Below, one piece after another: positions 17,726 through 52,872 of a stretch of 64,000 nucleotides of DNA. Source of the stretch: Candidatus Saccharimonadota bacterium. Lineage in GTDB: Bacteria; Patescibacteriota; Saccharimonadia; Saccharimonadales; Saccharimonadaceae. The position numbers were made by a program, and so were the translations under genes. The stretch lies in the NCBI GenBank assembly GCA_017433855.1, contig JAFRGM010000004.1:82025-146024 (forward strand), read 5' to 3'. The notes below the pieces were generated by a model. That model was not told the origin of the DNA. It made no database searches and saw only the letters and a program-made list of their open reading frames with translations. Position 1 is the stretch's first letter. Each line of letters begins with the position of its first letter.

Positions 17726-17754
17726 TAGACACTTTTAGCATAATATATTACAAT
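17726..17754 (+). promoter_or_regulatory. Promoter of the FISUMP surface-protein gene
   Basis: TAGACA (17726-17731), 17 bp, TACAAT (17749-17754). The predicted start near 17761 coincides with the first base of the inverted-repeat arm GCTACAG at 17761-17773, giving a leader of about 220 nt. Confidence 0.5.
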
Positions 17755-17760
17755 GTAATT

Positions 17761-17983
17761 GCTACAGTTCGAATAATTTTAAAAGATCGTGTGATCGTTT
17801 ATGAATGATTGCTCGGAACAATGGACCATAAAAATGACACCAGGATGGCTGTCGCGTATGGTTGATTGTTTCACGATCAATTGTTCGGACTGTAGCACCA
17901 TCGTGGTGTCATTTTTGTGCATGACCCTAATACAAGAATGACACCGCACTGTGGTTTATGGTGCTAACGGGTCGTGAGGTAAA
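17761..17983 (+). promoter_or_regulatory. Structured 5' leader with two interleaved stems
   Basis: Arm A (17761-17773) pairs with A' (17884-17896) over 13 bp with one mismatch. Arm B (17830-17842, extended by GATGG) pairs with B' (17904-17916, preceded by CCATC) and ends in TTTTT. The order is A-B-A'-B', so the stems interlock and may exclude each other. B/B' looks like an intrinsic terminator. A further GAACAAT/ATTGTTC pair (17816-17822 with 17880-17886) adds another alternative. This could be an attenuator or riboswitch-like control of the downstream surface protein. No known class is recognised. Confidence 0.5.
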
Positions 17984-19663
17984 ATGTCACATTCGGTCAA
18001 ACATATTTACAAGCTAGCTAAGTATTGCATGGGTGGTGCGCTAGCAATTGGTATTATTAATATATTTATGGAAGCATCCACTATGGCAGCTACCAATACT
18101 GCCGTTAATGCTTCGGTCAGTGTGGTTAGTTCTTGTAGCATGACGGCCACCACCAACACTACCCATTCCGCCACTTTGATTAATGGTCAAGAAAGCACCG
18201 CCGTCTCAGCTTACGAAAGCGGCATTGGTAAAACCACTATCTCCACTTCTTGTAACGATAGTGGCGGGTTCTCTATCTACACCGTGGGCTATACTGGGTC
18301 CACCATTGGCACTACTAATAGTAATAAATTAGTTGGCGCCAATACTGGCTTTACCATTCCTACCGGCACTGGTACTTCAGCCTCAAATTGGTCCATGAAA
18401 GTGGAAACTGCGCCAGGAGCAGCCGGCTCGCTCGCGGCCACCATAGATAATGGATTTAATGAATACCGCGAGGTGCCACTCAACTACACTAGAGCCGCAT
18501 ACTTAGAATCAGCCACCTATGCTGGCGCGCCTACGCTTGTGACTACCACCTATCGTGCCTACATTTCACCAATGCAAGCAGCGGACAACTACGCCGGCAA
18601 GGTTCGCTATGTTCTCGTCCATCCATCTAGTGCTGTAGCCCAGACTACCTTTGAATCTGCTTTCGCTATGGCTGGTAAAAGTACGTATACAAATAAGGCA
18701 GGAGTGGATACAGGTCATTACGCTATGCAAGATATGACCTCAAGTATTTGCAACAGCGTAGTAGACTATGGTACCGAAACTCAGCTCATAGATACTAGAG
18801 ACGAAAAGTTATATTGGGTACTTAAAGCTGCAGATGGTAAATGCTGGATGACGCAAAACCTAGACCTAGACCTAGAAACTAGCTCAAATAGTGTCGCCGC
18901 TCTTACTTCTCTTAATACAGATCTCAACGTCTATAATGATGATATTTATAACGCCAACTATGGCTATACCTACAATGAAGGTACTGGCGTAATCACTTGG
19001 ACTCCTAGCTCACCAACATATACATCTGATGCAAAGCACGCGAATGGTACTGCTTCCGGCACTACTATAAGCTGGTCAAACACGAGTACTACCCCACGCT
19101 CCGTAAATCTCACTGTAAATGGTAAAGATATTTATCAAAAGGATGGTTCTACCTTCTCCTCAGCTACTTGCAATTACTATACTACTCCATCTTGTCTAGG
19201 TAGCAATAAAAACTTCAATACTGAACCTTTTGCAGTGAATGGTGAACATGGTAAACTAGGCAACTACTATAACTGGTCTGCCGCGGTAGCATCTAATAAT
19301 ACATCCTCTAGAACAGCCAGTACCTATAATGCTATTGCCGATAATCCCAAGAACTCCATCTGCCCTAAAGGCTGGCGCCTAACCAGAAGTTCCGCCACTG
19401 CCGCCTACAATGACTTTAAATCTCTTTACACAGCCTACAGTAGTTTCAGCGCCAAAGCCAATGGCTACCCTCTCTGGTTAGTGCGCGCAGGCCGCGTCGG
19501 AAACGGCACGCTCGTCAATAGTGGCTACGTCGGCTACTATTGGTCATCTGCGGTCAGTAGTGCTAGCGACGCGTACTACCTGTACGTCCGTAGCGACAAT
19601 TTCGATTCGTCCAACAGCTACGATCGCGTCTACGGGTTCTCGGTGCGTTGCGTGGCGCGGTAG
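17984..19663 (+). CDS. Surface protein with C-terminal FISUMP/C-type-lectin-like domain, probable DGR target
   Basis: A protein of 559 residues with an N-terminal membrane or signal segment (about 16-35) and long Ser/Thr/Asn-rich repeats. The C-terminal domain (about 250-559) is FISUMP-like: KCWMTQNLDLDLE, NSICPKGWRLTR, GYYWSSAV, ending GFSVRCVAR. The last 40 codons before that ending are almost all NNC/NNT types at the positions that vary in diversity-generating-retroelement proteins. No reverse transcriptase or template repeat is visible in the window. The RBS (GTGAGG) is weak and the leader is structured. It probably acts as a variable adhesin; this is inferred. Confidence 0.75.
   Translation: MSHSVKHIYKLAKYCMGGALAIGIINIFMEASTMAATNTAVNASVSVVSSCSMTATTNTTHSATLINGQESTAVSAYESGIGKTTISTSCNDSGGFSIYTVGYTGSTIGTTNSNKLVGANTGFTIPTGTGTSASNWSMKVETAPGAAGSLAATIDNGFNEYREVPLNYTRAAYLESATYAGAPTLVTTTYRAYISPMQAADNYAGKVRYVLVHPSSAVAQTTFESAFAMAGKSTYTNKAGVDTGHYAMQDMTSSICNSVVDYGTETQLIDTRDEKLYWVLKAADGKCWMTQNLDLDLETSSNSVAALTSLNTDLNVYNDDIYNANYGYTYNEGTGVITWTPSSPTYTSDAKHANGTASGTTISWSNTSTTPRSVNLTVNGKDIYQKDGSTFSSATCNYYTTPSCLGSNKNFNTEPFAVNGEHGKLGNYYNWSAAVASNNTSSRTASTYNAIADNPKNSICPKGWRLTRSSATAAYNDFKSLYTAYSSFSAKANGYPLWLVRAGRVGNGTLVNSGYVGYYWSSAVSSASDAYYLYVRSDNFDSSNSYDRVYGFSVRCVAR
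19531..19663 (+). other. Candidate DGR variable region (VR)
   Basis: The 3'-terminal stretch encodes GYYWSSAV then DAYYLYVRSD, DSSNSYDRVY and GFSVRCVAR. Variable positions carry TAC, GAC, CGT, AGC, GTC and GAT codons, as expected if adenines of AAC/AAT template codons were mutagenised. The constant GC-rich end (19634-19660) would serve as the initiation-of-homing site. The template is not in this window. Confidence 0.55.
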
Positions 19664-19700
19664 GGCGCTTCACCACCACCGTGTTAAAAGCCGCCACACA

Positions 19701-19730
19701 AAATACCCCCCATATTCGGGGGAGTATTTT
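19701..19730. terminator. Bidirectional terminator
   Basis: AAATAC and five C's pair with five G's and AGTATTT around a short loop, between convergent genes. T runs exit on both sides. Confidence 0.85.
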
Positions 19731-52161: not shown

Positions 52162-52719
52162 TTAAGCGGTTGCTTCTTTAGCTTCTTCGGTAGTAGCAGC
52201 TTCAGCGGCTTCAGCCGGTTTTGCTGCAACAGTCTCAGGCTTGTTCTCAAGACCAGAAACGATGCCATTGATGCCAGACAACAACGTGTCCACCACCTGT
52301 GCGATAAGTTCGTTCTTGGTTGGGAGAGATCCAAGCGTTTTTACTTCCTCGGTTGAAAGGCTATTGCCCTCTGCGTTGAAGCCACCAATTAGTTCCATTT
52401 TGTCGTGGGTCTTAGCAAATTTGGTTAAGACCTTAGCCGCGTCAAAATCTTCATCGGTGCCAAGCGCATAGAGTAATTGACCAGTCAAATTAGAAGTTTC
52501 CGTATCTTTATAAGCCGCGATTTCTTTCATCGCCACTTTTACAAGACGGTTCTTTACTACCTTAATCTTCACGTTAGACTCGCGAGCAAGTCTGCGCAAT
52601 TCCTGTAGTTCTTTTACGGATAGCCCTTGATACTTTGCGTAGACTACCATTTTGGAGTCAGATAGAAGTGTGGTTAAATCAGCAACCAACGTGTTCTTTT
52701 TATCTCTTGAAATTGCCAT
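52162..52719 (-). CDS. rplJ: 50S ribosomal protein L10
   Basis: A protein of 185 residues starting MAISRDKKNTLVADL, with VYAKYQGLSVKELQELRR typical of L10. It anchors L7/L12 to the ribosome. It is led by an L10-type leader RNA. The C-terminus is Ala/Glu-rich. Confidence 0.96.
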   Translation of the reverse strand: MAISRDKKNTLVADLTTLLSDSKMVVYAKYQGLSVKELQELRRLARESNVKIKVVKNRLVKVAMKEIAAYKDTETSNLTGQLLYALGTDEDFDAAKVLTKFAKTHDKMELIGGFNAEGNSLSTEEVKTLGSLPTKNELIAQVVDTLLSGINGIVSGLENKPETVAAKPAEAAEAATTEEAKEATA

Positions 52720-52837
52720 AAAAAGTTCCTTTGGTTATTTATTATTAGGGTCGGCTAATTGTTAAATAGCGTCACCAAATATACAAGTAATTCCTCGGTG
52801 GCAAATTAAGCATACGCAGCCACTGTCTTTGGTAACT
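52720..52837 (-). promoter_or_regulatory. L10 (rplJ) leader RNA
   Basis: The leader contains ACCAAAGACAGTGGCTG and TTGCCACCGAGGAA, matching the conserved halves of the ribosomal L10 leader that L10-(L12)4 binds to repress its own operon. Coupled to the promoter at 52844-52872. Confidence 0.75.
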
Positions 52838-52843
52838 CCTTCC

Positions 52844-52872
52844 ATTATAGCACACTTTGCTTAAAAAATCAA
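52844..52872 (-). promoter_or_regulatory. rplJ-rplL promoter
   Basis: TTGATT, 17 bp, extended -10 GTGTGC-TATAAT on the lower strand. Confidence 0.8.

Follow-up and report, generated by a model that had tools for sequence, protein, structure and literature searches.

The 3' end of a gene for a secreted FISUMP-domain protein in a CPR bacterium (Candidatus Saccharimonadota, assembly GCA_017433855.1) is very probably the variable region (VR) of a diversity-generating retroelement (DGR) target that is rewritten in trans, one of ten such targets served by a reverse transcriptase (RT) and template repeat (TR) in the unassembled part of the genome. The VR lies at 19493-19639 on the forward strand of the window, by which we mean the whole 64,000-nucleotide stretch of contig JAFRGM010000004.1 that was analysed. 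The region carries the mutation fingerprint of a DGR, is shared by ten targets and is homogenised at silent sites, and sister species carry complete cassettes acting on the same gene family. The RT and TR are probably present in this organism, and active.

Results

The target gene (17984-19663, forward strand) encodes a 559-aa protein. Its N-terminus is hydrophobic, its C-terminal domain is of the FISUMP type, and the part in between is of unknown family. The protein scored 48.7 bits with TIGR02145 (cut-off 41.65), which places it in the FISUMP family, and 22 bits with the Pfam family Fib_succ_major (PF09603), under the gathering score of 33.9. An earlier note made from the sequence alone was thus right about the FISUMP type, and the reading frame does end in the GFSVRCVAR that it had pointed out. 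The neighbours are ordinary, a QueH-type gene on the 5' side and a lysine-decarboxylase-family gene on the 3' side, with no retroelement. A check after the stop codon, which covered the window copy alone, revealed a 12-bp inverted repeat 3' of the gene (19700-19730, strand not assigned) that is probably a terminator and has no sequence-level counterpart in the other paralogs. Elsewhere in the window, 52710-52850 on the reverse strand is a ribosomal protein L10 leader (Rfam RF00557), as expected in a ribosomal operon. The closest named relatives of the organism are animal-gut Saccharibacteria.

In a structure model of the full-length protein (pLDDT 70), the C-terminal part weakly matched the C-terminal domain of Legionella Lcl (8q4e, Z 6.4) and the N-terminal part showed a weak likeness to pilin/adhesin-type beta sandwiches (Z about 7-8, Foldseek E not below 0.01); Foldseek against the PDB gave no match with E < 0.001. 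A model of the C-terminal domain alone reached pLDDT 36 and was dropped. The target protein may be an adhesin or a receptor-binding protein, with the varied residues on its surface.

The assembly that holds the window comprises 596,208 bases in 11 contigs and is 85.8% complete. Ten loci on contigs C2, C4, C5 and C8 share the C-terminus: nine full-length genes, including the one in the window, and one that is truncated because the start of contig C8 falls inside it. Over the last 300 aa, the other full-length paralogs share 57-79% identity with the window protein. Homology stops at the stop codon, and the 3' flanks of all ten genes are unrelated. A copied hairpin after the stop codon has been reported for the DGR of Bordetella phage BPP-1; when we compared the 3' flanks of the ten genes for a hairpin of this kind, they had nothing in common.

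In the comparison of the ten paralogs, hypervariable codons began at 19493, and the last of them was 19637-19639. The codon cluster that the earlier note had seen within 19531-19663 is real, but these limits were too narrow for the variable region, and the contrast that the note drew with A-rich codons in the remainder of the gene does not decide the matter. Between pairs of paralogs, identity at codon positions 1, 2 and 3 was 0.78, 0.81 and 0.55 upstream of the VR and 0.60, 0.68 and 0.86 inside it, the opposite of normal coding DNA, where position 3 varies most. For distant paralogs such as L001 and L008, position-3 identity rose from 0.43 upstream to 0.89 in the VR. Over the 24 hypervariable codon columns, agreement at the third base was 0.925, compared with 0.713 ± 0.009 after permutation (0 of 10,000 permutations reached the observed value). 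Some of these columns end nearly always in T and others in C, regardless of the amino acid, and codon bias therefore cannot be the cause. The fixed third bases fit the proposal that the codons arose by A-to-N changes of AAC or AAT. Read from the sequences, the VRs would be copies of a common template in which the first two bases of AAY codons were randomised; the VRs differ in length and in having an ACG CTC or a TCG CTT version, and the template may have been one or two to three near-alike versions. The alignment of the ten 3' ends and flanks also defined a constant, GC-rich 3' end of the VR, TCGGTGCGTTGCGTGGCGCGG plus the stop codon (19640-19663, forward strand), a candidate homing start site by analogy with known DGRs.

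To avoid circularity, we scored this variability against outside templates, namely TRs located beside the RTs of congeneric species, and called a column variable when at least three bases occurred in it. With the TR of genome G033 as the reference, 39 of 59 columns at adenines were variable versus 4 of 118 at other bases (p = 7.5e-20), and four more outside templates gave p values between 2e-10 and 3e-17. Adenine-specific variability, found with the templates of other species, thus upholds the claim that this region is a DGR target.

Six complete cassettes in sister species each combine RT, TR and FISUMP target in the space of a few kb, and over these six systems the mismatches between TR and VR number 125 at adenines and 2 elsewhere. 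In all six (L077, L078, L079, L081, L082 and L083), the TR is located downstream of the RT gene, in the opposite reading direction. At a further locus, L012, RT and TR run in one direction, unlike in the six cassettes, and a 318-aa reading frame directly upstream of the RT (L012:129-1085) had no Pfam match and may encode an unrecognised accessory protein. The sister RTs carry the motifs VIGNxTSQ and YVDD, and their best PDB match was to chains 8ub7-8ube (E = 1e-39), which we take to be the BPP-1 complex. The RVT_1 cut-off was exceeded in 23 of 60 relatives, all but one of them from this genus.

The template repeat beside an RT that the earlier note had proposed as a check was thus found in sister species, and it was missing from the 86% of the same genome that is assembled. 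RVT_1, one sister RT and a genus RT profile, which detected the RTs of G009, G033 and G021 as positive controls, found no RT in the assembly. Nor was a TR found there: with the window VR and the inferred TR as queries, the matches were the ten VRs and three short chance sites. The VR/TR core pattern was also absent from the viral contigs searched. None of the ten targets has a cassette nearby, so the missing ~14% probably holds a core locus. This part is the most likely place for the RT and TR, and all ten targets would then be remote, as the earlier note had supposed for this one; the ten paralogs are dispersed and none adjoins an RT or a TR. In relative G028, many contigs (C4, C19, C27, C29, C36 and C38) end near a FISUMP target, which suggests that repeated FISUMP genes break assemblies and hide DGR loci.

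The missing RT and TR count against this reading, as does the VR of one paralog (L004, G000:C5:64621-65526), which carries an in-frame TAA. This codon is not obtainable by A-to-N change of AAY alone and so implies a further change or an AAA-bearing template. The main rival to the preferred reading is that the DGR which wrote the ten VRs has recently been lost from the lineage and that the targets are now static. The absence of RT and TR from 86% of the genome fits such a loss, as do the stop in L004 and several changes off adenine in the VR of L006. Several near-complete members of the genus have FISUMP paralogs and no RT, which means that loss of the element does happen. Against this, most VRs are near-identical at silent sites even though the gene beside them is nearly saturated, and a loss would therefore have to be very recent.

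Relatives provided a control for this silent-site signal. From upstream into the VR, position-3 identity changed by +0.30 in this genome and by -0.06 to +0.10 in other genomes of the genus (+0.10 in G004, 0.00 in G028, -0.04 in G009, -0.06 in G026, and +0.10 in G018 from three usable sequences only). Dispersed paralogs in other genomes of the genus thus show little or no silent homogenisation, and G004, G026 and G018, which lack an RT, do not have it at the level seen here. We consider recent loss unlikely. Of the genomes compared, this one thus bears the plainest mark of recent copying into scattered targets. Hypervariability of the protein at codon positions 1 and 2 is common in the genus, also in genomes without an RT, and FISUMP ends that are merely hypervariable should therefore not count as active DGR targets.

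An origin without any DGR, by gene conversion among paralogs with diversifying selection on surface residues, is favoured by the hypervariability of positions 1 and 2 in genomes that have no RT, and gene conversion could make the 3' ends alike. This origin is nevertheless highly improbable, as conversion would not pick the adenine columns of foreign templates or fix third bases precisely where the first two are random, and proven cassettes in the genus act on the same gene family. The DGR reading thus remains well supported, which makes this a large case of a DGR with remote targets, a kind already known.

The new and unexpected part is a structured RNA leader common to all nine intact targets and present nowhere else in the genome. 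In the window it spans about 220 nt (17759-17979, forward strand, like all elements given here), and it was recognised by its folding score, by covariation and by its presence before the nine intact targets. The 200 bases upstream of the start codon folded far better than shuffled sequences (z = -5.9). A -10-like box, TACAAT (17749-17754), has the same spacing in sister leaders when judged by eye, and the transcript probably starts near the 5' arm of the helix P1. The P1 arms are at 17759-17778 and 17879-17897; segment A (17832-17848) lies in the P1 apex and is followed after P1 by segment B (17898-17916), a loop (17917-17927), segment C (17934-17945) and the pre-Shine-Dalgarno element GGGTCGTGAGG (17969-17979), with the ATG at 17984. 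The leader core TTTTTGTGCATGACCCTA has nine genomic copies (one with two mismatches), each preceding an intact target. A covariance model recovered the same nine leaders and three extra matches, of which the two listed are the opposite strand of a palindrome.

The P1 arms differ in sequence between leaders, and the own 3' arm was the best partner of the 5' arm in 14 of 14 leaders from two species, with a mean pairing energy of -40 kcal/mol versus -17 kcal/mol for swapped arms. Within P1, nine consecutive pairs chosen by eye held in 126 of 126 cells. Segments A and B covary as well, and so do B and C (14 leaders; 0 of 20,000 permutations), and segment B can form pairs with either A or C, though not with both at once. 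In this genome the loop TGACCC is complementary to GGGTCR immediately 5' of the Shine-Dalgarno sequence, and at the same site some relatives have GCCTTTT versus AAAAGGC, or GTATGACCTT versus AAGGTCATAC. A pseudoknot between loop and Shine-Dalgarno region, read by eye and not evident in all relatives, is therefore possible.

The leader model matched 29 of 170 genomes of the genus. The reading frame downstream of the leader was homologous to the target family in all 12 loci with a BLAST match, and a few leader loci had no downstream reading frame or no match. A DGR RT occurred in 20 of the 28 other leader-bearing genomes. Rfam gave no family at the gathering score, and a lax search gave only sub-threshold chance matches to miRNAs. 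The leader would most likely act in cis, as a switch of translation or attenuation that the targets have in common. We suggest more tentatively that the ten proteins form a regulon in which the RNA switch, through A:B or B:C pairing and the loop pseudoknot, sets which of them are made, or how many.

Discussion

In the mechanism that we propose, a DGR-type RT would copy an RNA transcript of the TR and misread its adenines, and the resulting cDNA would replace the homologous 3' ends of the ten dispersed genes for secreted FISUMP proteins. About 24 codons, mostly AAC or AAT in the TR, would be randomised in this way and the remainder reset to the template.

Saccharibacteria live on other bacteria and adapt to the surfaces of these hosts. 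If our reading is true, a set of ten secreted proteins that a single template system rewrites, in a genome of 0.6 Mb, would be a strong candidate for host recognition. Silent-site homogenisation together with adenine-restricted change makes target sets recognisable in fragmentary genomes without an RT. By its own account, a large DGR survey (PMC8144416) does not capture this class. With a leader in common, DGR targets can be tested directly for coordinated or selective expression, and if the targets do form a regulon, a CPR epibiont would combine targeted hypermutation with RNA-controlled expression in one system of antigenic or host variation. Our literature searches found no paper that names DGR and FISUMP together, and none that names Saccharibacteria, structured RNA and covariation together.

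The closest parallel is the TvpA DGR of Treponema denticola, in which one TR and RT serve seven dispersed targets in strain ATCC35405 (Le Coq and Ghosh 2011; PMC4891356). Variation there falls mostly at template adenines, TvpA has a C-lectin fold and several targets are lipoproteins (PMC4891356). In both systems several dispersed surface-protein genes would be served by a single TR and RT. They differ in that TR and RT were found in T. denticola and the present assembly has no RT, and in that here ten targets in a 0.6-Mb genome have FISUMP domains and share an RNA leader. DGRs of CPR/Patescibacteria have RTs of clades 2 and 5F, and several systems in one genome have been reported (PMC8144416, PMC10907252); the present one resembles them as a cellular DGR of the same superphylum. 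The commonest CPR target architecture reported, as cited in PMC10907252, is a CLec domain fused to an AAA ATPase, unlike the FISUMP domain here. Roux et al. stated that their own search would miss remote targets (PMC8144416). In Thiohalocapsa PB-PSB1, incomplete DGR loci have been described and candidate remote targets explored as trans-diversified (PMC10907252). Incomplete loci and candidate remote targets are features shared with our case; the Thiohalocapsa system differs in its putative conflict-system targets and in belonging to a multicellular bacterium with a 7.95-Mb genome. The likeness to the DGR of phage BPP-1 is one of RT family, judged from the PDB chains that the RTs of sister species match best. 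The phage DGR acts on a single target in cis, and the six sister cassettes are unlike it in that their TR follows the 3' end of the RT gene, with the reading direction reversed.
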